Positions 11,501-63,778 of a stretch of 64,000 nt of DNA are shown in pieces. Source of the DNA: Chrysophaeum taylorii (taxonomy: Eukaryota; Sar; Pelagophyceae; Pelagomonadales; Pelagomonadaceae); contig JAQMWT010000379.1 of NCBI GenBank assembly GCA_029834535.1, positions 1-64,000 of the forward strand, written 5' to 3'. Numbering within the stretch: the stretch's first letter is position 1; the number at the start of each line of letters is the position of its first letter. The notes under the pieces are model-generated. The model saw nothing but the letters and a program-made list of their open reading frames with translations, was not told where the DNA came from and did not search any database. Both the position numbers and the translations under genes were made by a program.

Positions 11501-12628
11501 TTATGTGGTTGTGGTGGTGGTGGTGGTGGTGGGCACGATACCGTTGTTTCCGAGCTCGACGAGAAGCATGCTGAGATAATTGTCGTCGGGGTAGCCGAAT
11601 GAGCCGTGGCCTCGGTTTGTCTTGTGGTGAATGCTCCCCCAGACGACGCAGTTGTCGCGGCCGGTCGTGATGGAGCGGCCGACTCGAAAGACGAGGCGGC
11701 GTTTGAAAGCGATCTTGAGGAGCTCAAAATGCGTGTCGCCCTCGGGCGTAGGCAGGTAGGCGGTGCGGGTGGTGCCCGAGAAACGGGCGCCGGGGTGCGG
11801 GTGTTCCGGGCCCTGTACCCCGTCTGGAAAGTGGTACGTGATCGTGCGGGTGCGAGACGAGGGCGGAAAGCCCGGGAGCGGCATGTTGTCGATGTAATCG
11901 GTCATGCTGCCGCTGAGCGGCTGGTTTCCTATGGTAATGCGGCAATTCGCGCGGCACACGGCACATTTGCCCGAGCCCGTGGCGAACCACTCCTCGATAC
12001 AATCGCGGTGGAACGCGTGCGTGAGCCCGCCCTCGCACTTGTCGAGTTTGAAGGCTCGCTTATCTCGCGTAAATCCGTCCATGCAGATCGAGCATGTCAA
12101 CTCGAGCTCGCGCGCTCTGGCCGTGCATTCCGTCTTGGCGACGTCGCCTTGGACCTCGACTCGAGGTCGCGACTCTGTCTGCCGTCGACGAACGTCGCGC
12201 TCGAAGCGAGTCGCGACGTTGCGCTGACGCATATTGCGCAAATCAACAACGTAAAGCCGTTGCGGACCGACGGCGAAGCCCGTTTCGTCGTAGCCCGCGT
12301 TCCTCGCGGCTTCGAGGTGAGCGCTCGCGTCGGGAGAGAACTCCTCCCATCGGTGCGATTCCCAGTACTCCCACGGTACCGGCGCGGGCGATGGCGCGAG
12401 GCGCCTCACGGCCCGCGGAAACCGCTTTCCCTTCTCCTTGAGCGTCATCTCAGTCAGCGACACATGCGCGACCTGGGACCCAATCCGGACGATGGCGTTA
12501 CAGGCGCAGCTCAAGAACGTCGTCTCCAGCTTTCGAGCCGTCTCACCATCGAAGGCGCGCCACTCGTACCCTGCCCACCATTCCCACGAAGGCTGTGAGG
12601 GACCACCATCGTCACTGAACAACAACAT
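11501..12628 (-). CDS. Deltex-like E3 ubiquitin ligase (WWE-WWE-RING-DTC)
   Basis: From the Met at 12,628 the protein is 375 residues. Two WWE domains (about 15-76 and 85-148) open with WEWWAGYEWRAF and WEYWESHRWEEF. A C3HC4-type RING follows, with Cys179/182/198, His204 and 207, and Cys210/222/225. It runs straight into the Deltex C-terminal domain (234-370), recognisable by GNQPLSGSM, HFPDGVQGPEHPHPG, RRLVFRVGRSITTGR and IHHKT. In animals the RING-DTC pair ubiquitinates and binds ADP-ribose, while WWE binds ADP-ribose chains or a partner. The open frame extends 67 codons upstream through a tetranucleotide repeat, so the 12,628 Met is preferred. The Thr run at the C-terminus is a repeat expansion. 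Confidence 0.9.
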   Translation of the reverse strand: MLLFSDDGGPSQPSWEWWAGYEWRAFDGETARKLETTFLSCACNAIVRIGSQVAHVSLTEMTLKEKGKRFPRAVRRLAPSPAPVPWEYWESHRWEEFSPDASAHLEAARNAGYDETGFAVGPQRLYVVDLRNMRQRNVATRFERDVRRRQTESRPRVEVQGDVAKTECTARARELELTCSICMDGFTRDKRAFKLDKCEGGLTHAFHRDCIEEWFATGSGKCAVCRANCRITIGNQPLSGSMTDYIDNMPLPGFPPSSRTRTITYHFPDGVQGPEHPHPGARFSGTTRTAYLPTPEGDTHFELLKIAFKRRLVFRVGRSITTGRDNCVVWGSIHHKTNRGHGSFGYPDDNYLSMLLVELGNNGIVPTTTTTTTTT

Positions 12629-12630
12629 CG

Positions 12631-12652
12631 TCTGTCTGTCTGTCTGTCTGTC
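12631..12652. repeat. (CTGT)n microsatellite abutting the Deltex-like start codon
   Basis: A run of five or more CTGT units (GACA on the gene strand) lies 2 nt upstream of the preferred start codon at 12,628. Confidence 0.9.
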
Positions 12653-13653
12653 GCAAGAACAAACAAATCGGACAAATCGCACACTATCGGTCGTGTCCGT
12701 TAGTGCTAACCACCGCATCATTTCGTCATTTTCTGGGCTCCCTTCGCAACACCCTCGGCGACTTCCCAGATCGATCGATCGCCGAGGCAATATCAAACTT
12801 AAAGAAGCAATAAACTTTGCAGCGTACATTATGGTGCAGATTGTGACGCCGACACGTCGGAATGTCGAGCATTCTTTCTGTGGTTGTACGAGAGCAGCAC
12901 ACGCTCAAAGGGATGTATTCCACTAAATTAACGTATGCACACCCCGGTCGGTACCTCATGCTCTTGAAGGCGAGTGTTGATGATCGAGGCCGCTTTTGCG
13001 ACTGTGGTGGCCTCTCGTTCTGCTTACCACACCTCTGACGGACTCGGACTCCTCTCGGAATAAATCACGTCAACTCTTCGGCATTTGTGATCGACACGTG
13101 CAGGGGCTCGGAGCTCCCGGAGGCCGAGATCGATCGAGGAACCTCCTTCATTATCCCCTCCTCTACTGAGGTGGGGCGTTTCTCGCGTCGTCTTGCCTCG
13201 TGCGACACCGAATATTTATTTAGTTCGTGAGTTAGATGTAAACAAGCGAGCAAAAGGCGCGCTCGTCGTCGAAAAGATGATAATCGGAGAACATAGAAGG
13301 CAAGATGAGAAGAAGCAACCAAACACGCATCGCGCGATACCCATTTCCCAAGTGAGATTACACCTGTAGCGCGGGTAAGACTGGCTCATTCGAGCGCGCG
13401 GTAGGAATCGTAATGCACGCACGCCCCCCCCCCCGCGTGATTGCAGCAGCAGCAACACGCTACGCTCTACAGGACCGAATCAGCCCAAACGAGTCGGGCT
13501 CGCGCGCGATGTGCTAAATTCCATTGAGATCGGCGGTTTCTTACTTCAATAACGGCTCGAAGCCTGCGCCGTACTGGGCTATATTACCGAGACCTTGCTG
13601 CCGTCTCGGCTTTCGAACGGTGTGGATTCAAGAGACAACCCATCGTCGCCACC
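12653..13653. other. Intergenic
   Basis: About 1 kb of mixed composition. It includes a poly-C run near 13,427-13,436 and no frame that resembles a protein. It presumably holds the Deltex-like promoter and the 3' region of the COMM-domain gene. Confidence 0.4.
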
Positions 13654-51635: not shown

Positions 51636-52682
51636 CTAATCGTCGTAGAAGAGCGCGGGACCGTCGTCCGCGTCGGGGGAGACCACCCCGGTCGTGGTGG
51701 TGGTGGTGGTGGTGGTGCTGTTTGCGCCGCCGAAGAGGGAACGGATGAGGATGTCGGGGTCGACCACCGACATCCGGCGGGGAACGGGGAGCATAAAGTT
51801 CTGGAGTTTTTCGTGGGTTTCATACCTCGTCTTCCGGCCCTTGGAGGCGCGCGCGTCGCGCTCGTCGCGACGGTGGTTTCTTTTCGGGTCGGGGTGTTTT
51901 GCGAGGTCTGAAGAGGGCCGCAGATCGCCCAAGTCCCGGAGCAGGGTCCGGTAGAAGGGTCCGTCGTCATAGGTGTCGGCGTCGAGACCTCCCGAGGTCG
52001 CCGGATGCATCTTCTTGAGAGCGCGGTCGCGGTCGGCCATCGCCATCTTCGCCGCCTCGAAGGGTCCGAGACTTACGGCCTTGAGGGAGTGCCTCGCCGC
52101 GGCGGCGCCGAGATGGGTGCGGCGGCGCCAGGCATCCATCGCCGCCTCCCAGCCTTCGCGTCTCCGCGAATGAGCTCTGTCGATCTCGCTCCACTGCTGG
52201 TCGAGGCAACGCCTCTTCTCCAAAGGTTTGTCGTCCTGCGTCGCCGTTCGCAAGTCGATCAGCGCGTCCAGGAGCCGCCGCACCGCCGCGACCGCGCCGC
52301 TGCCCCCGCCCTTGGCCCTCATCATGGGCTCCATGAGCGCGCGCGCCTCCATCGCGTCGCCCAACAGCCCGCGCTGCTGCCGCGCTGCCTCCGACGACGA
52401 CCTTTTAAGCGGCGCGTCTGTCTTCGTTTTCGCGTCCTCCTCGTCCAACCGGGCCATTAAAGCCTCCAGCTTGGCCGACGACTCCCCACCATCCAAGAAA
52501 GTGCTACCAGACGGCGAGGACTCAAAATCGTCACCATCCTCTTCTTCTTCTTCTTCTTCTTCTTCTTCGTCGTCGACAAGTCGGTCATCAAGAGCACCGG
52601 AGGACTTGACGATCTCCGGCGCGAAGCACCGGTCCTCGTTTGTGTCGGGCTTGAGGAGGTCGTTGATCAGGTCGTCCATCAT
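51636..52682 (-). CDS. AATF: AATF/Bfr2-like ribosome-biogenesis protein
   Basis: 348 residues. A Glu/Asp run (39-48) sits in an acidic N-terminus. The central helices are LLDALIDLRTATQDDKPLEK and EGWEAAMDAWRRRT. The C-terminal signature is DDGPFYRTLLRDL, then RASKGRKTRYETHEKLQNFM and PVP. These match the AATF leucine-zipper-like and TRAUB regions. AATF/Bfr2 (Che-1) acts in small-subunit rRNA processing in the nucleolus. Divergent from the NAD synthetase gene, with only 58 bp between starts. Confidence 0.85.
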   Translation of the reverse strand: MMDDLINDLLKPDTNEDRCFAPEIVKSSGALDDRLVDDEEEEEEEEEEDGDDFESSPSGSTFLDGGESSAKLEALMARLDEEDAKTKTDAPLKRSSSEAARQQRGLLGDAMEARALMEPMMRAKGGGSGAVAAVRRLLDALIDLRTATQDDKPLEKRRCLDQQWSEIDRAHSRRREGWEAAMDAWRRRTHLGAAAARHSLKAVSLGPFEAAKMAMADRDRALKKMHPATSGGLDADTYDDGPFYRTLLRDLGDLRPSSDLAKHPDPKRNHRRDERDARASKGRKTRYETHEKLQNFMLPVPRRMSVVDPDILIRSLFGGANSTTTTTTTTTGVVSPDADDGPALFYDD

Positions 52683-52740
52683 CGCCGGAACAGGAGTACG
52701 AGCAGGAGTAGTAGTAGTAGTACCGGATCCGAGAAAGATA

Positions 52741-54960
52741 ATGGGGTATGATGATCATACCACCACCGCCGAGAACAGGTGGAGTGCGGGACGCAGCTTC
52801 TTCGACCTGTACGCCCACAACATGGTCCGCGTGACGGCCGCCGTGCCCCGCGTCAAGCTCGGGGACCCGATGGGAAACGCCGAGGAGATCGAGGCGCTGT
52901 ACGCAGCGGCCTGCGATGCGGGGTCCGCCGTGTGCGTCTTTCCCGAGCTCTGCGTGACCGGGTACGCGCTGGACGATTTACATCAGCAGGACACGATCCT
53001 CGACGAGGCACTCGCGGCGCTCGCGCGGCTCAAGGCGGCGACGGCGGGCCGCGAGGGCAGCGTGCTGGTGGTCGGCGCGCCCGTTCGGCTCGCGCGAGGC
53101 CTCTACAACTGCGCCGTCGTGCTATCGCACGGCTCGACATTAGGAATCGTGCCCAAGTCCTACCTCCCGAACTTTCGCGAGTTTTACGAGTCGCGGCAGT
53201 TCGTTCCGGCGTCGACGCTCTTGGAAGACGACGTCGCGTTCCTGGGCGAGACGGTGCGCGCGTCGCCGTACACCGTCTTCGCGTGCCGCGAGAACCCGAA
53301 CTTTACGATCGGGGTCGAGGTCTGCCAGGACCTCTGGGTCCCGATCCCCCCGAGCGCCTTCCAGGCGTGGCGCGGCGCGACAGTGCTCGTCAATCTGAGC
53401 GCGTCGAACATCACGATCGGCAAGGCCGAGTACCGGCGCCAGCTCGTCGCGCAGGCCTCGGCAAAGTGCTACGCGGCGTACGTCTACGTGTCGGCGGGCC
53501 AGGGCGAGAGCACCAACGACCTCGCGTGGGACGGCCAGGCCGTGATTCACGAAGCGGGCGAGCCGCTCGGCGAGACGGAACGCTTCGCGCCGGGACCGCG
53601 TCTCCTGCGCGCCGACGTCGACCTCGACCGTCTCCTCCAAGACCGGGCGCGCGACATGACTTGGCTCCATAACGGGGCCGACTTCCGGGACCGCGTGCAC
53701 CGGGTGCGCCGCGTCGAGTTCTCCTTCTCGCCGCCCGCCGTTCGCCTCGCGCACCGCGTCGTCCCCAAGCGCCCCTACGTCCCGAGCGATCCTCGCACGC
53801 TCAGCCAGTTGTGCTACGAGTGCTACAACGTCCAGGTCAGCGGCCTCGTCCAGCGCATTCGCTCAAGCGGGCTCACCAAGCTCGTCATCGGCGTCTCGGG
53901 TGGCCTCGACTCGACCCACGCGCTCCTCGTGTGCTGCCGCGCCCTCGACGCGCTCGAGTATCCGCGCGCCAACGTCCTCGCCTACACGATGCCGGGCTTC
54001 GCGACGGGTGCGACTACCAAAGCCTACGCCCTCGACCTCATGGCCGCCCTCGGGGTCGACGCCCGCGAGATCGACATCCGCCCCTCGTGCGACCGCATGC
54101 TCCTCGACATCGGTCACCCCTACGCCGTCGACGGCGAACCCGCGTACGACGTCACGTTCGAGAACGTCCAGGCCGGCGAGCGCACGAGCCACCTCTTCCG
54201 ACTCGCCAATCACCACGGCGCCTTCGTCGTCGGCACGGGCGACCTCTCGGAGCTCGCGCTTGGCTGGTGCACCTACGGCGTGGGCGACCACATGTCGCAC
54301 TACTCGGTCAACGCCTCGCTCTCAAAGTCCCTCATCCAGTGCGTCATCCAGTGGGTCATCGACGAGACTTTTTTCGGCGACAAAGTCAATGCCGTCCTCT
54401 CTAACGTCCTCGCGGTCGAGATCTCCCCGGAGCTCGTGCCCCCATCCGACGGCAAAAATATCCAGTCGACCGAGGCCGCGATCGGACCCTACGATCTCCA
54501 CGACTTCCAGCTCTACCACGCCACGCGCAGGGGCCTCTCGGCCCCCAAGGCCGCCTTCCTCGCCGCGTACGCCTGGGCCCGCGACATCCCGCGCGCTTCG
54601 GATGCTCGCCCCGTCGAGCCCCAGCCCAGCTTGACGGGCGCCAAGAGTATCCTCAAGGACCGCGACTTCGCGCTCGCCGAGATCCTCGACTTCCAGCGCG
54701 CCTTCTTTCGCCGCTTCTTCCTCACCACCCAGTTCAAACGCACCTGCATTCCCAACGCCCCCAAAGTCGCCGACGGCGGTTCTTTATCCCCGCGCGGCGA
54801 CTGGCGTGCCCCTTCGGATTCCTCCTGGGCGGCCTGGAACCGCGCCTGGCTTCGCACGGCCACCTGGGCCCTCGACTCGGCGCGAGACCTCAACACCGAA
54901 GGGGGCGCCGACCTCCTCCCGGCCCTCCAGGCTCTCGTCGACAAGCATCGACCCCCCTAA
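52741..54960 (+). CDS. Glutamine-dependent NAD+ synthetase, bacterial long form
   Basis: 739 residues from the Met at 52,741. The frame is open upstream but antisense to AATF. The N-terminal nitrilase-type glutaminase has Glu69 (FPEL), Lys139 (PKSYLPN) and Cys195 (EVCQDLW). The C-terminal ATP-pyrophosphatase domain has VIGVSGGLDSTHALL at about 382-396, then FATGATTKAYALDLMAALG, GDLSELALGWCTYGVGDHMS and a terminal FKRTCIPNAPKV with GGSLSPRGDWRAPSD. These features follow the bacterial NadE of actinobacteria (about 680 residues) closely, rather than the animal or yeast NADSYN1/QNS1. It converts deamido-NAD+ plus glutamine and ATP to NAD+. Possible horizontal or organellar origin. Convergent with the receptor-PARP gene. 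Confidence 0.92.
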   Translation: MGYDDHTTTAENRWSAGRSFFDLYAHNMVRVTAAVPRVKLGDPMGNAEEIEALYAAACDAGSAVCVFPELCVTGYALDDLHQQDTILDEALAALARLKAATAGREGSVLVVGAPVRLARGLYNCAVVLSHGSTLGIVPKSYLPNFREFYESRQFVPASTLLEDDVAFLGETVRASPYTVFACRENPNFTIGVEVCQDLWVPIPPSAFQAWRGATVLVNLSASNITIGKAEYRRQLVAQASAKCYAAYVYVSAGQGESTNDLAWDGQAVIHEAGEPLGETERFAPGPRLLRADVDLDRLLQDRARDMTWLHNGADFRDRVHRVRRVEFSFSPPAVRLAHRVVPKRPYVPSDPRTLSQLCYECYNVQVSGLVQRIRSSGLTKLVIGVSGGLDSTHALLVCCRALDALEYPRANVLAYTMPGFATGATTKAYALDLMAALGVDAREIDIRPSCDRMLLDIGHPYAVDGEPAYDVTFENVQAGERTSHLFRLANHHGAFVVGTGDLSELALGWCTYGVGDHMSHYSVNASLSKSLIQCVIQWVIDETFFGDKVNAVLSNVLAVEISPELVPPSDGKNIQSTEAAIGPYDLHDFQLYHATRRGLSAPKAAFLAAYAWARDIPRASDARPVEPQPSLTGAKSILKDRDFALAEILDFQRAFFRRFFLTTQFKRTCIPNAPKVADGGSLSPRGDWRAPSDSSWAAWNRAWLRTATWALDSARDLNTEGGADLLPALQALVDKHRPP

Positions 54961-55780: not shown

Positions 55781-58700
55781 TCATGGGTTCAGCTTGGCCT
55801 GGACGTAGTAGAGTGGGTAGGCTTGCTGCACGTCGTAGGTGACGAAGACTTGGGGATTGTGATGATCATCGACGGTGGTGTCGTAGTCGTCGCCGGCGTC
55901 ACGATCCGCGCGGTTGCCTTGGCGATAGCGGCCTGAGACGATGCGGCAGACGAAAACGTGTTGGTTCCCATCTTCGTCAGGCTTGGCCCACTGGGCGAAG
56001 AGGGCGCGACGCGCGGCGACGGCAAAGTAGGCGCCGCGGCCATAGCGAGAGTCGGGGCTCGCGAAGCCAGGCTTGAAGCCGCCACGGATTATTTTGTCGA
56101 CATTTTCTTTGGACGTGCCATGGTAGACCGGCGCACGCTCGAGGCTGCTGTAGAGCTGCGCCCCGAAGATGTACGAGCCTTCCAACGCGGGGAAATGATG
56201 TTGAACTTGAGAGACGGCCACGCCGTACTGCTGCCACTTGAAGACATCCTGAATGCGGACGATCGAGACGACGTCGTAGTCGTCGCACGCAAAGCCGCGC
56301 GCGACGGCCCGCCACTCGTCCGAGAGAGGGTCAACGCCGACGCGTTGGACTGGCTCGCCGTTCCCACGCACCCACGACAGCGGTTGACGGAAAGTGCCTA
56401 GGCCCTTGAAATCGAGCGATTTGTCGACAAGGCGCGCGGCGCAAGCGAGAGGCAAAAAACCTTCGCGATTGCCGGTCGCAGTGCGCCGCGTCTCGTCGCT
56501 GACGATGACGGCGCGGCCCCAGTTGCCGTCGGCGATTGTCGATTTGAGGGCGACGACGTCGTCGATTATGACGGGCAGGCACTCTGCCGCTTCGACGCCT
56601 TCGGGGAGCCTCGCGGTCTCCGTGTCGACGAGGTCTGGCGCGGCCGGGAAGGCGAACGTGACCTTGACGTTCCGCGCGTGGTCACTCTCAAACTTGACCT
56701 GTTTCTTTTTCCGAAAGTCGACCCGGTACGTCGTGAAGGAGTCGAATTGCGAGGTGCGCTCCCACTCGTCGTTGAGGCAGACCTTGGCCCCGCCTGCGCC
56801 GACTAGCCACTTGGCGTAGGCTGCCGAGAGTACGGGCTGCGCGCGGTCGCAGTAGGCTCGCCAGCGCGTGTTCGGGATAGGTGGAATGGTGAAGTTGATT
56901 TCTGGAACCCAGCCGGCATCGACTTTGCGCTTCTCTTCCTCAAAGTACCAGCACATGGGCGTCGACCACGCTCTGGGCGATCGGAGTACTTTTTGCCGAT
57001 GTTCGGTTTTGACATTGATCTGGGTGAAATGGGTGCGGGAAGCATCGCCTGCAAAGAGAATGAGGTACTCCACCCCGTCGATGTCGAGCTTGACCTTGTT
57101 GACTTCACCTCCGACGAGCGACTTCGACGACGTCACGGCCGGGGACGCGTCGACATTGCGGTCCATCTCGCCGGTCTTCTGCACCACCGACAAGTAGACG
57201 CGCCAGGCATGCGCGATGGTCGCCTGTTCCTCGTTACCGAACAGTTTCCACCGGTTGTCGTCGCGGTTGTCTTCATTTGGGTTGTCGAGGTCGATCTCGG
57301 TGTTTTCGTCTGTCTCGACGTCGTCGTCAGCGAGCCAGTACCACGCGTCGACCGTGTACGTAATGGCGAGCGGGTTGCTGCTGGCAGCGTCCAGGAGTTC
57401 CCGCTCTCCATCATCGTATTCGTCAAAGTCGCTGTTTTTTGGAAGAGGTAGGAGCGCGCCCGTATTGGGATCGAAAGCTTGCTTGATGAGGTAGAGCTTG
57501 TCGACGTCGCCAACGGGGATGGTGCCTCGACGCGTGTAGCGGCGGTAGATGGCGACAAGGGCGCAGGAAAGGACCACGATCACGCCCGTCAAAGCCAAGG
57601 TTGCGATGAAGAACATGGTCGGGTTACCGGAGGCCTTTTTATTCGAGACAATCTCCGGCGCGTCATCGCGGTCCAACGGGACGGTTTCTGTCGGTCCGGG
57701 ATAGATGATGTCGCTGTCGACCACGAGTTCGTCCTCTACGGAATCGAATTCGCCAACTTCGACGAGCTTGGCGATGTCGCTTTGAAGCTCGACGTCGAGG
57801 CGTCGGCGAGGACTGGTGATGACGAGATTCAAGAAATCGAGGTAATTCTCGCGGTCGCCCGACGCGGGGTCGAGAACGACGCGGCCGGACGCGCCGTCGA
57901 ACTCCGTTTCGAGCATCGCCCGGTAGACAAGGTCTGGATCGATGTCGCTGGCGCCCGCGTCGGGTAGCCCGCCGACACTGTCGAGAGCAAGAACGTAGAG
58001 GTGGGCCGCGTCGGCAAATAAGAGCGAGTACTCTGCGGCGGTAGCGCCGTTGTCGTCGAGGTCACAGTAAGTAGTTCGATTCCTGTCGGCACAACACATG
58101 GCGGCGTCCGCGCAGCCATCGGAACTCGAAACCTCGGCCCAGGCGTCGAGGTAGTTTTGGGTGACGCGCGAGCTGTTGTAGGTTGCCCGGCGCTCTTGAA
58201 AGCCGATTTCACCCTGGGCGCCGATGATGGCGTCGCTATCGGCTTGGCCCGTCTCCGGGTCCCTGAGAGCCTCTTCCGTTGGGAATCCAGCGATCCAGGC
58301 GAAGCCGACACCGTGGTTCGCGTCTTGTTGGTAGGAGGCTTTGTAGATGGCATGCTGCATGCCCTGGAGCGTCGAAACGAAGACGATCTTTGCTCCAGAA
58401 TCGACGACGGCGTCGATGACGGCGGCAGCGTCGAGCACGCCATCGTTGAAGTCTTGGAGCGAGAAGGTGATGCCCACGGGCGTTCCGGTCGCGGGGTCTC
58501 GAGCTTGAAGGTCGCACGCGGTGCCGATGCACTGGCCTTGACCGAGGACGACGTTCGAGTTGTCGCTTTCGACGAACGGCTCTGAGGCGACGAAATTGTC
58601 GATAAATATCTGGGTGAGCTCGGTCGAGTAGAGCGAATCTTCGGTTACGACACAGATCCGGCCCCAGTTGTTGAGCGCAGCGACCTTGTTGATCGCCAGG

Positions 58701-60916
58701 GCGTTCTGCGACTCGGGCGTTGTCAGACGCGTGAGATAGGGGTATAGCGTCTCGTTGCCCAGCGACGGCGCCGTCGAGTACGCCGAGACGACGACATAGT
58801 TCCCGGCGGCTGGCGACTCGGGGACGTCTCGCGCGATCTGCTTCCGCGCCGCGACCGACGAGATGTCTCGAACGTCGTTCGAGCAGCTGGCCATAACAAA
58901 GCTGATGGCGGCGGGTGCGGCGTCGCGGAGAACGGAGACGAGGCCGTCGTAGGCGCGCCCGTTCGAACAGCCGATGTTGTAGCCGTGGGCGACGATACGA
59001 ACGTTGGGGAGGACGTCGTCGTACACGCCGTCGTGACGGTTGTTGATGAGGTCGAAGGCGTGGTGCGTGTGGTCGCACTGTTCGCGGAAGAAGATGTCGT
59101 CGCCGCACAGGATGGCGACGTGGAGCTCGTGGACGTCTGCTGTCTGCTCGATGCGTGCGGCGGCATACTCGACGCCGGGATCGAGCGCCATTGTGGGCTC
59201 GCCATGGAAGGTCGCGAGGTAGTCGACAAGCGCGGCGTAGGCCGGCCGGCCGACGAGGTCTACCGTCTTGTCGTCAATGCCGATTGCCGCCGCGTAGTCG
59301 TCGTCGTTGATCGCGCGGCTCGAGACGGCAACATCGTAGAGTGCCTCATCGGGGACGGCCGTCCCATTTTCCCAAAGACCGGCGACAGTCGCCTGCCCAG
59401 ACATGATGTTGTGGAACCACGTCATCTTGAAACCGACCGAGAGCTGGAGGATGGCGACGGTGGCGTTCGAGTCGCCGAGCGACGAGAGCGGAGCCACTGA
59501 TGTCGCGAGCGTCCGTTTTAGCTCGGCGCCCGTGACCCTACGCACGACGACGATCTCGTCGCCCAAATCCGGCACCATGGCCAGCGCCTGGGCGCGCGTG
59601 ACATGGTACCGCTCGATATCTTCACCGAGAGAGTCGCCCGCGACCAACGCAACGTCGGAGCCGGCGAACCACCGTAGCGCGTCAGCCGCCAGATTGCCAA
59701 TCTGACATTCGCCAACACGGCAGCCGCAATACGAGTCGTCGGACCCGGCCGGAGAAGCGCAGCCGCCTCCAGAAACGACCCCGCTTGGGCCTCGAATGTT
59801 GTCAGTGACGTACCCAGCATTGAAGGTTTCGAGAGTTAAATCGACTGTCGCCTTTAAGGCGTTGAGGAGGTTCTGGCCGACTGCAGGTGCGTCGCAGTCC
59901 AACTCGATCGCCTCGATCACGGCCGAACCGTTGTATGTAATCTTCGCCGCCCTCGTTCCGCGATAGGTGTCCGGCATTGCGACAATTGTCGCCGTTCCGC
60001 GTGCCGTTTCCACCTTTCGCGGGGTGCCAAAAAACGCGCCATCGCCGCTGTCGATGACCACGAGGTCGAAGTCCCACTGGCGCGCGAGCTCCTCGATAGC
60101 ACGTTCCTCGCGGTCGATTTCTTCGTCGTCGTCGTCGTCAAGAGCAGACGCACTGCTGCCTGACAGCAAGTCGTCGACGTCAGACGCCGGCACGCCGTCC
60201 GAGAGGAGCAAAACAAAAATCTCTATCTGAGCCAGCCTGTCCGTCAGTGCCAGCTCTCTGTAAGCCGACAGGAGCGCCCGATCGTACGACTGGAACGCGA
60301 CACCCTCGAGGTCGCCGATCCTCGTCGGGTCGGCGAGCGAGAAGACGGCAACCCGCTCGAACACCCAGACTGTCTGCGTCACGTCGTCGAGCGGCGAGGA
60401 CGCCACCAGGTTCGACATGACTGCCGGGACACCAGAAGCGTTGAGATGCGCCGTCAAGACCTCGACGCCGCCACCAAAATCGCGAAATGTCAGTCCACGC
60501 ACCGCGTAACCCGCCGACGCGAAGAGCTGCGCCGACGCCATTCCTTCGTTCACCTCATAGAACAGCCCTGATCCACGAAAGTACCCACCCATGTCCAGGG
60601 CCAGCGTGCGATTCGCGACCGTAAAAGTCGCTGCGACAGCCGCTTCCCGACGCGCCGCGCCGCCAAAGCAGGAACAGGGCGACGACTCAAAGAGCTCGAC
60701 GCTGCATCTGCGCCATTGAAATCAAAATGTTATGAAGATATTTTTGTGTTCGAAAGACACTGGCTTCTACTCGCTGCCGGCGGCGTCGACGGGATACGCC
60801 GCGCCATTCACCCGCGAGGTGACGACCAGCGTCGTCGACAAGACGTCCTCCGCGCGCACCGTCGCCGGTCCCGCCGAGAGAAAGCCTCCAAGCCACCACC
60901 AAACACGACGACCCAT
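55781..60916 (-). CDS. Single-pass receptor: pseudo-5'-nucleotidase + ANF/periplasmic-binding ectodomain, WWE and PARP cytoplasmic domains
   Basis: Exon 1 (60,771-60,916) encodes MGRRVWWWLGGFLSAG, a signal peptide ending in TVRA. A 69-nt GT-AG intron (60,702-60,770) joins it in frame to the large exon, giving about 1,688 residues. In order: a 5'-nucleotidase-like fold (about 25-480), with LALDMGGYFRGSGLFYE and ECQIGNLAADALRWFAGSD; a ligand-binding region (about 570-1010), with VHELHVAILCGDDIFFREQ and NNWGRICVVTEDSLYSTEL; one transmembrane helix (about 1077-1101) followed by RRYTRRG; two WWE-like domains (about 1168-1400); and a PARP fold (about 1515-1685) with PVYHGTSKENVDKIIRGGF, YGRGAYFAVA and QAYPLYYVQ. 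The nucleotidase metal motifs are replaced, and the PARP third residue is not Glu, suggesting mono-ADP-ribosylation. Confidence 0.82.
60702..60770 (-). other. Intron 1 of receptor-PARP gene
   Basis: Donor GTAGAA at 60,770 and acceptor GATGCAG ending at 60,702. An alternative acceptor ending at 60,708 is also in frame and would add two residues at the junction. The upstream exon otherwise ends in a stop directly at the donor. Confidence 0.6.
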
Positions 60917-61741: not shown

Positions 61742-63778
61742 TCAGACTATGGTACACACGCAGTGCATCTTGACCGTTGGGGCAGTCGCGGCACCCAGCT
61801 TGTCAGGATCGCTTGCCATAAAAGGACGGCTATCATCGTCCTGGAGGAGGTTGATGAGGCTGCCGGCGCTCATGCGATTGTTGACGCTGTCTGCTTCCGT
61901 GCTGATCGAATCGAGCGCCTTGATAATACCGTCGAAGTTGCGGATGCGGGTCCTGTACTCTGATTTGTGGCTAGCTAGTCTCCAGAGGATGGCGATCGAG
62001 TCGCGGTCGGTGTCGTTGTGATAGGGTCTGAGGACTAAGGAAACGAGAACATCGAGGCCGTTTCCCGTAGCAACGACGTCAAAAGCCTTTGGGGTGGTGG
62101 TGAGGCAGGCGAGGGCGTTGAGGAAAGCGCGCTTGTCCTCGCGGTTGGAGGTCTTGAGGAGTTGGATTAGCGTCTTGATTATTCCGGTTTCGGCAATGCG
62201 CTCTAGGTTGATGGCACTTGCGCCCGCAAGGATGGCGAGGACTTTGGCCGATACGCACTTGGCGCGTCGCGAGCTGTTGCCCTGGACGATGCCGGCTAGG
62301 GTATGGACGGCGCCGTTGGCAACGACGGCGTCGCAGACGTCGTCCGGCTTGTCTTTGACGAGGCCGACGAGGACTATGCCGGCGTGCTCGACGACCGTCC
62401 AGTTGACAGCACTCTCGCCGCCGCTGTCGGCGATAATCTCGGCGGTGTGAACGAGACGAATGAGGAAGACGGCGGCTTTGGCGGGTTTTTCCGCGTTTTC
62501 AAAGGCCGTCCACAGCAGCGCACGAGTGATGGCGACGCACGCATCGCGACTGTCGTCATCAACAACGGTCGCTTCGAGGAGGTGAACGATAACATCGTTG
62601 GCGGGCGTCATAGCCAGGACATCGTTGGCGGGTAAGAATCCCAGGAGTGCCTCGAAGAGGATGCCGACGGCTTGCCGTTTGATGTCCATCACCCGGATCT
62701 CGTCCGAAGTCCAGTCGACGAGGGTTGCCTCGACCTCAATGACCTGGATGAGTCCCTGGGACAGTGCGCGACGCGCTCGCGGCGCCTCGTCTCCGAGCGG
62801 GGCCTTGGACAAAATCACGAGCGCAGCCACGACAAGGAAGGAGCGTTCGAAGTGTGGGTTCGAGCACGACGAGTCTTGTTGTCGATGGTCGTGCCGGGTC
62901 CCACGGACAGATTGCGTTCGGTCAAACGTCACGGCTTCGAAAGCCGCGACGAGCTTCTCAAGCGGATCGAGAAGATCGAGCGCTTTGGCGATGACGGCGG
63001 CGCGGTAGGCCCCATCTCCTGCGTCAAGGCGCTTCCAGAGCTTGAGGAGGTTGGTAACATCGTACTGCTTCTCGTCGTAGGCTTGGAGCCGCACGACGAG
63101 TGCACAGACCAGGCTCTTGCGCTTCGTCAAGACCGCGACCCGCGCCGCCTCAAAGGCGATGAGCTGTTCGAGCGCAACAACGGCCAAATCAAGTGCCGTC
63201 TCGTTTGTCATCAGCGTCGACTGTATGAGGTCGGCGACGATCGCAACGACACCCATCGTCGCGAGAGACGTGGCGAGGTCTGGATCAGCGTTGCACGCCA
63301 TGGCCAGCTTCTGTGCTGCCTTGGCCTTGTCTCGACTCGCCGCCTCACCATCTCGCAGGAGATTCACGCTCTCGCAAACCTCGGCCGGCAGCGCATCCGG
63401 GTCCGGAAGGTCGGCACAAATCGGAACAATACCAGCGCGCGATGTGTGGTCGGTCCACGCGGCTGGATCGGTCGCCTGCTCCCCGACGGGCCCCGAGATT
63501 CCCGACACCTCGGTCGGCGCTGAGGTGACGACGTGGTTCGCGATCCGCACCCGACACCTCGCTGGTACGCCTTCGAGATTGTCGGGCAACTCGCACCAGT
63601 CCCCGTAGTCGTCCTTGTACGCCAGGACCAATCCTTTTTTGTCACATCCCACATCGCAGCGCAACGCCTTGACTACCTCTGTCTGCACCGCCTCGGCCGT
63701 CGAGAGCTCGACATCGTCCACCTTTTTCACCACATCTGAGTGGTCCGGACGCTCGATGAGCAGCGTGAATACGACCAT
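61742..63778 (-). CDS. ARM-repeat-like protein with N-terminal ubiquitin/PB1-like region and C-terminal CaaX box
   Basis: 678 residues. The first 80 (FTLLIERPDHSDVVKKVDDV, then GLVLAYKDDYGDWCELPDNL) resemble a PB1 or ubiquitin-like fold. The rest is a long series of paired helices of ARM/HEAT type, for example LEKLVAAFEAV, VVANGAVHTLAGIVQ and AETGIIKTLIQLLKTSNRED. The protein ends in K-M-H-C-V-C-T-I-V, so the last four residues form a prenylation (CaaX) motif. It is probably a membrane-tethered scaffold. Its start at 63,778 is followed by 222 bp of non-coding sequence to the window edge. Confidence 0.8.
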   Translation of the reverse strand: MVVFTLLIERPDHSDVVKKVDDVELSTAEAVQTEVVKALRCDVGCDKKGLVLAYKDDYGDWCELPDNLEGVPARCRVRIANHVVTSAPTEVSGISGPVGEQATDPAAWTDHTSRAGIVPICADLPDPDALPAEVCESVNLLRDGEAASRDKAKAAQKLAMACNADPDLATSLATMGVVAIVADLIQSTLMTNETALDLAVVALEQLIAFEAARVAVLTKRKSLVCALVVRLQAYDEKQYDVTNLLKLWKRLDAGDGAYRAAVIAKALDLLDPLEKLVAAFEAVTFDRTQSVRGTRHDHRQQDSSCSNPHFERSFLVVAALVILSKAPLGDEAPRARRALSQGLIQVIEVEATLVDWTSDEIRVMDIKRQAVGILFEALLGFLPANDVLAMTPANDVIVHLLEATVVDDDSRDACVAITRALLWTAFENAEKPAKAAVFLIRLVHTAEIIADSGGESAVNWTVVEHAGIVLVGLVKDKPDDVCDAVVANGAVHTLAGIVQGNSSRRAKCVSAKVLAILAGASAINLERIAETGIIKTLIQLLKTSNREDKRAFLNALACLTTTPKAFDVVATGNGLDVLVSLVLRPYHNDTDRDSIAILWRLASHKSEYRTRIRNFDGIIKALDSISTEADSVNNRMSAGSLINLLQDDDSRPFMASDPDKLGAATAPTVKMHCVCTIV

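Follow-up and report, generated by a model that had tools for sequence, protein, structure and literature searches.

The 64,000-nucleotide stretch of DNA analysed here, referred to as the window, spans positions 1 to 64,000 of contig JAQMWT010000379.1 in the 70.8 Mb assembly of Chrysophaeum taylorii, a single-cell marine pelagophyte alga. On its minus strand, a gene running from 60916 to 55781 encodes one protein of 1690 residues, GenBank CTAYLR_001206 (P0001), whose parts follow each other in the order weak signal peptide, 5'-nucleotidase fold, Venus flytrap of the class-C-receptor type, one transmembrane helix, WWE-like region, WWE domain, SH3-like domain and PARP catalytic domain (Table 1). 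Proteins of this kind are most likely a class of enzyme-linked receptors whose output, as predicted from sequence, is mono-ADP-ribosylation. Three Pfam domains exceed their cut-offs in the window protein, 5_nucleotid_C (3.4e-16), ANF_receptor (3.3e-11) and PARP (5.7e-9), and profile searches together with fold matches recovered all of the nucleotidase, ligand-binding and PARP folds on which the original prediction of a receptor-PARP depended. That architecture holds on profiles, fold matches and conservation across the family, with the addition of the SH3-like domain, which had been missed.

The gene coordinates and the domain order had been given correctly from the outset, and the intron, placed at 60702-60770, had its acceptor six bases off. 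The GenBank protein reads GSECSVELF across the splice junction, and the Glu-Cys pair at this point is invariant in the remaining seven proteins of alignment A1, which sets the intron at 60708-60770. Translation of exon 2 is 100% identical to CTAYLR_001206 over its full length. The gene models of C. taylorii were built with RNA-seq and homology evidence, and the terms 'PARP', 'ADP-ribos' and 'receptor' are absent from the main text of the genome paper, as far as it was available (PMC10366177).

The single product is read from DNA and a gene model, and the protein might be an artefact in which separate genes or misassembled pieces were joined into one frame. This is barely credible: the exon 2 frame continues uninterrupted for more than 1,600 codons, GenBank has one gene here, and in nine further copies, of which one lies outside the C. 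taylorii set, a single frame or model carries the same order. Seven of the nine are uninterrupted frames of C. taylorii (C125, C129, C242, C370 and three at C323); the other two are P0006 and P0003. Because copies on other contigs keep the order, separate genes and misassembly were both rejected, and the single gene in one frame of the original prediction stands.

Table 1. Coordinates of the receptor-PARP gene and of its encoded features in the window
Feature	Position	Strand	Residues or remarks	Basis
Exon 1	60771..60916	-	Start codon, signal-peptide-like N terminus and start of the nucleotidase-like domain; residues 1-48 plus two bases	Agreement with GenBank P0001
Intron	60708..60770	-	63 nt, GT...CAG	GenBank protein and alignment A1
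Exon 2	55781..60707	-	Single open frame through the stop codon (55781-55783)	Open-frame reading
5'-nucleotidase fold, probable pseudoenzyme	59129..60844	-	~25-575; span includes the intron	Profile A2 against PDB; Foldseek
5_nucleotid_C match	59318..59743	-	371-512	Pfam
ANF_receptor / Venus flytrap, predicted ligand-binding	57842..59017	-	613-1004	Pfam
Single transmembrane helix	57542..57610	-	1082-1104, basic residues after	Hydrophobicity; one strong segment in the window copy
WWE1-like region	56984..57361	-	~1165-1290, weak in the window copy	Alignment with paralogues bearing two or three WWE stretches
WWE2	56639..56956	-	~1300-1405	Pfam, PDB matches, invariant residues
SH3-like domain	56423..56590	-	~1422-1477	Position by alignment; Caskin SH3, weak
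PARP catalytic domain	55784..56386	-	~1490-1690	Family profile; Foldseek
Triad His	56120..56122	-	His1578	Alignment
Triad Tyr	56027..56029	-	Tyr1609	Alignment
Third triad position	55847..55849	-	Val1669 (Ile in most relatives)	Alignment

The PARP, WWE and SH3-like domains

The PARP catalytic fold was found by Pfam, profile and structure comparison alike. PARP15 is matched by the family profile at 2e-39 and by Foldseek at 7.2e-16 (TMt 0.86), and the best 50 structure matches of the intracellular model are all PARP domains, which is no evidence against the WWE or SH3-like folds. The catalytic triad was read from a script-made alignment of 25 rows, comprising four vertebrate PARPs and 21 family rows that represent 20 genes (L014 and P0007 being one gene). 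His and Tyr are kept in 18 of the 21 family rows, and 17 of these 18 have I, V or M as the third residue; the row of P0007 is cut off before this position, and its genomic frame L014 has Ile. The triad reads H-Y-V in the window copy and H-Y-[I/M] in the His-keeping relatives where it is readable. The Glu that marks poly(ADP-ribose) polymerases proper was not found at the third position, occupied here by Val1669, and therefore the UniRef name of such proteins, 'Poly [ADP-ribose] polymerase', assigned by domain, is misleading. The PARP_reg helical domain, present in the C. taylorii PARP genes C552 and C360, has no Pfam match in the window protein. Profiles, fold matches and the conservation of an H-Y-[aliphatic] triad in the family support the pattern of a mono-ADP-ribosyltransferase, the activity already predicted from the missing third Glu.

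The catalytic His is replaced by Gln, Lys and Glu in P0010, P0011 and P0012, respectively, which retain the Tyr and carry Arg, Glu and Leu at the third position. These three form one clade with support of 100/99 in a tree that covers the tails of the receptor-PARP family itself only. P0012 corresponds to C. taylorii C606; if P0010 and P0011 come from other organisms, the loss of the His is old and the His-less proteins were retained.

The features of WWE-PARPs, one or two WWE domains before the PARP domain and a third triad residue that is Ile or Val, are present in the window protein, where the WWE match lies under the Pfam cut-off. For WWE2 this match is 0.0028 (18.4 bits, cut-off 21.1), reaching 4e-9 in P0004, and WWE exceeds the cut-off in 16 of 17 other family proteins (P0002-P0015, L010, L017 and L018), the miss being P0013. 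Four weak PDB matches include the WWE domains of HUWE1 and PARP11, and the SH3 domain of Caskin is matched weakly. Residues Y1376, Q1385 and R1394 of WWE2 are invariant in A1 and align with a Tyr, a Gln and an Arg of HUWE1; residues of this kind bind ADP-ribose in other WWE domains. Of the two WWE-like domains originally proposed, WWE2 is supported by its relatives, and WWE1 has no Pfam match in the window copy and is assigned by paralogue alignment. The SH3-like domain lies between WWE2 and the PARP domain, and also lacks a Pfam match in the window copy; SH3_2 gives 0.0006-0.01 in P0003-P0005 and exceeds the cut-off in P0013.

The ectodomain and membrane topology

The N-terminal region has the two-domain fold of 5'-nucleotidases according to Pfam, profile and Foldseek comparisons. 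Profile A2 matches 2z1a (1.4e-13) and CD73 (1e-10) in the PDB, and Foldseek matches CD73 at 3.4e-18, with a root-mean-square deviation of 18 that indicates a relative domain placement unlike that of CD73. The structure-match list for the ectodomain (VIA) has the flytrap part only among the matches listed, so that the nucleotidase assignment rests on Foldseek and profiles.

The fold is shared with ecto-5'-nucleotidase CD73 and bacterial 5'-nucleotidases, whereas the motifs that serve their activity are not. In CD73, the LDAGD, GNHEF and NGGGIR positions provide metal ligands and substrate contacts. The window copy has LDMGG and TFRDF in place of LDAGD and GNHEF, and the family profile aligned to CD73 gives lDlGG, nprDF and aagalgas for the three motifs in the same order, NGGGIR having gone from the family consensus. 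None of the seven aligned copies retains the second Asp of LDAGD or the Asn-His of GNHEF. Inspection of the first metal motif by eye shows neither the Asp nor the His in the window copy, and the Asp alone in C242. This check covered the first metal motif, LDAGD, GNHEF and NGGGIR, and motif alignment did not find these metal-binding motifs or the NGGGIR substrate motif of the enzymes. Given the loss of key metal-site and substrate motifs, the nucleotidase half is probably a pseudoenzyme, and an active ectonucleotidase is unlikely for the aligned copies; what had been called a 5'-nucleotidase-like region keeps the fold and has lost its key catalytic motifs. The distant relative P0015 keeps an NGGAIR motif, with metal motifs that look degenerate by eye, and for this reason an ancestral nucleotide-binding role is possible.

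The second ectodomain part is of the periplasmic-binding-protein type I, and its structure matches are ligand-binding folds of surface receptors of the class C type. In contrast to the class C G-protein-coupled receptors (GPCRs) GABAB and mGlu, the window protein does not have a seven-helix domain, none being found by a hydrophobicity scan. Its layout resembles that of natriuretic-peptide receptor guanylyl cyclases and of receptor kinases, in which an ANF_receptor-type or other sensor is connected through one transmembrane helix to a cytosolic enzyme. It differs from them in having a PARP-type transferase as output and an extra nucleotidase-like domain in front.

The 12 invariant cysteines in the eight-row alignment all precede the transmembrane helix, with none in the last 586 residues, and sequons amount to 0.70 per 100 residues before the helix versus 0.40 after it (14 proteins). 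Basic residues after the hydrophobic segment, and invariant cysteines only before it, agree with an N-terminal half that faces an oxidising compartment and a PARP domain in the cytosol.

The receptor-PARP family

PARP matches in the C. taylorii genome number 21. Receptor-type genes account for 14, namely C125, C129, C242, C323 (three in tandem), C370, the window, C388, C439 (three), C673 and C389. In the C388 and C439 copies the link to the nucleotidase and ANF parts is their order on one strand within ~5 kb rather than a spliced model, and the C388 match contains one TGA, so that it may be broken or spliced. The remaining seven matches are C360, C552, C495, two in C474, C480 and C122. Pfam scans of the PARP frames of C360, C552 and C495 place C360 and C552 in the PARP1/2 type; the C474 frame scanned is that of a neighbouring SNF2 gene, and C474, C480 and C122 stand outside the classification. 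With C149 (P0006), whose PARP part is outside the list of 21, and the His-less C606, receptor-type loci number ~16.

The relatives search retained 17 proteins from 6118 candidates, 13 belonging to the family and four being vertebrate PARPs (three named PARP14 or PARP14-like). Homologue counts are lower bounds, since the A1 profile search returned only the window protein and P0002 although A1 also holds P0003-P0005, and the relatives search came without the window protein and P0002. Eight family relatives outside the C. taylorii set are probably environmental. In scans with few peptide patterns, which are a weak test, no relative was found in viral_contigs with A4, nor any prokaryotic carrier with P0013.

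The sensor part differs among members. Two stretches each of PBP_like_2 (PstS-like) domains occur in C673, C389 and P0014; P0013 has the flytrap alone as sensor (ANF 2.5e-42, PARP 2.2e-24); P0008 and P0009 have the flytrap and no nucleotidase match in Pfam; and in P0015 WWE and PARP come after a nucleotidase, a stretch rich in cysteines and several membrane-spanning helices. Domain composition thus marks the receptor-PARPs as a modular family, in which related tails appear joined to varied sensors, and not as a lone fusion. Elsewhere in the genome, C695 (L029) shares its type of sensor with the receptor-PARPs C673 and C389, having two PstS-like matches of which one is under the cut-off. Where those two have a PARP tail, C695 has a multi-pass membrane part that, by eye, resembles a class C GPCR.

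The ratio of nonsynonymous to synonymous substitution rates (dN/dS) was estimated by the Nei-Gojobori method in five paralogue pairs, for whole genes and for segments. Close paralogues are under purifying selection, as whole-gene dN/dS is 0.27, 0.32 and 0.33 in the three C323 pairs and 0.28 in C125/C129, so that three of these four close pairs come from the same three genes; for the window and C370 it is 0.41, at a dS of 1.2. The PARP segment has the lowest value in three of the five pairs (C323a/b 0.09, C125/C129 0.16, window/C370 0.33). Between C323a and C323b the tails are near-alike (dS 0.025-0.04) and the ectodomains much less so (dS 0.16), and this patchwork suggests gene conversion, or exchange of sensors and tails, in the C323 tandem trio (L010, L011 and L012).

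Predicted function and alternatives

The reading that we favour, and hold to be rather better than an even bet, is that of a type I membrane receptor whose effector inside the cell is an ADP-ribosyltransferase. From this arrangement we infer ligand-controlled signalling. The N-terminal half, at the cell exterior or in a lumen, would bind a small solute, and closure of the flytrap on its ligand would rearrange a dimer so that the cytosolic tails come together or are set free. The PARP domain would then place single ADP-ribose units onto the partner tail and nearby substrates; the WWE domains would read ADP-ribose, and the SH3-like domain would recruit partners, in the manner of the SH2/SH3 adaptors around receptor kinases. 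Members without the His could, like pseudokinase receptors, serve as non-catalytic partners. The mark could be read and erased by a Deltex-type E3 and macrodomain proteins that the same genome encodes. Chances are about equal for and against the fuller proposal of a new receptor class in which a ligand outside switches on mono-ADP-ribosylation inside. Such a class would parallel receptor kinases, with catalytic tails, WWE domains that read the product, an SH3-like adaptor, partners lacking the His and sensors that can be swapped, and it would have expanded in a pelagophyte.

Several points weigh against the receptor reading. For a type I single-pass protein, the helix is clear and basic residues follow it, but the window copy has a weak signal peptide, with no 19-residue stretch above 1.6. 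Taken over all sequons and all cysteines, the densities before and after the helix are only modestly different. The predicted-structure models are of moderate confidence (pLDDT 71.6 and 66.3). The window copy is weak also in WWE1 and in the SH3-like domain, besides having WWE2 under the Pfam cut-off. In two of the five pairs, C323a/c (0.27, ANF 0.24) and C323b/c (0.34, nucleotidase-like 0.13), another segment is more constrained than that of the PARP domain. Human PARP13 is inactive, though owing to a changed His. Like the window copy, it has Val at the third position, according to the available text of a 2010 PARP survey (PMC2964712).

One alternative is a membrane scaffold, in which the PARP domain binds NAD (nicotinamide adenine dinucleotide) or partners without useful activity and assembly through the WWE and SH3-like domains depends on ligand. 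The Val at the third triad position and the three of 21 rows (P0010, P0011 and P0012) that by alignment lack the catalytic His while keeping a receptor-type layout speak for it, but the other 18 rows keep His and Tyr and the PARP domain is the most constrained in three of the five paralogue pairs, which makes a scaffold unlikely. A sensor of lumenal stress or of the secretory pathway, placed in the endoplasmic reticulum (ER) or another internal membrane and reporting the state of the lumen to a cytosolic PARP, would have an identical topology, and sequence data do not tell the plasma membrane from the ER. A precedent is PARP16, a membrane-anchored mono-ADP-ribosyltransferase with a cytosolic catalytic domain, proposed to answer lumenal stress; it is, however, a small tail-anchored ER protein without a ligand-binding ectodomain, WWE or SH3-like domain. 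Surface-receptor ligand-binding folds and sensors of several unrelated kinds, PstS-like pairs among them, fit solute sensing better, and a lumenal sensor is as unlikely as a scaffold. Much less probable still is a surface protein that takes up or processes nutrients, with an incidental PARP tail: 5'-nucleotidase and PstS-like domains usually serve phosphate or nucleotide scavenging, but two of the metal-site motifs have gone from every one of the seven aligned copies, a transporter part did not turn up, and related tails recur with varying sensors.

Among the known proteins closest to the receptor-PARPs are the animal WWE-PARPs and macro-PARPs (PARP7/11/12/13 and PARP14/15), whose PARP domain has an H-Y-[I/V/L] triad and which include the best sequence and fold matches, PARP15 and PARP14. 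In the available text of the survey, clade 3E, whose members have one to two WWE domains ahead of the PARP domain and Ile or Val as third triad residue, is described as animal-only; its domain lists hold zinc fingers or macrodomains and no ectodomain, and the word 'transmembrane' does not occur (PMC2964712). The same source describes WWE-PARPs in land plants (the inactive RCD1 type) and, in Dictyostelium, one protein that has two WWE domains (PMC2964712). The pairing of WWE with PARP is therefore already known from outside the animals. That no described protein has the full order, as the original prediction held, agrees with the literature, none having been found in a limited search that tests the claim weakly, and the novelty of the receptor-PARP is likely.

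Further genes of interest lie in the same window. A Deltex-type E3 at 11504-12829 (minus strand), ~43 kb from the receptor-PARP, has two WWE stretches, a RING domain and a DTC match of 3.5e-39, and is a potential reader of ADP-ribosylated proteins; macrodomain matches occur at three loci of the genome. A glutamine-dependent NAD synthase (CN_hydrolase and NAD_synthase) at 52228-54960 (plus strand) adjoins the receptor-PARP tail to tail, and this adjacency of an enzyme making the PARP substrate is probably due to chance. Upstream of the gene, at 61742-63778 (minus strand), lies a probable armadillo-repeat protein (ARM_ARMC5 7.8e-10, under the cut-off).

The well-known membrane receptors with built-in enzymes carry kinases, phosphatases or cyclases. 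If the reading as a receptor is true, an ADP-ribosyltransferase tail would add to these an output that consumes NAD and has WWE, macrodomain and Deltex proteins as its readers. Aureococcus, like C. taylorii, is a pelagophyte. The 2010 survey, in its available text, gives no PARPs for two diatoms or for Aureococcus, listed there under brown algae (PMC2964712); compared with none in that survey, the 21 PARP matches in the pelagophyte C. taylorii would revise the view of PARPs in ochrophyte algae.

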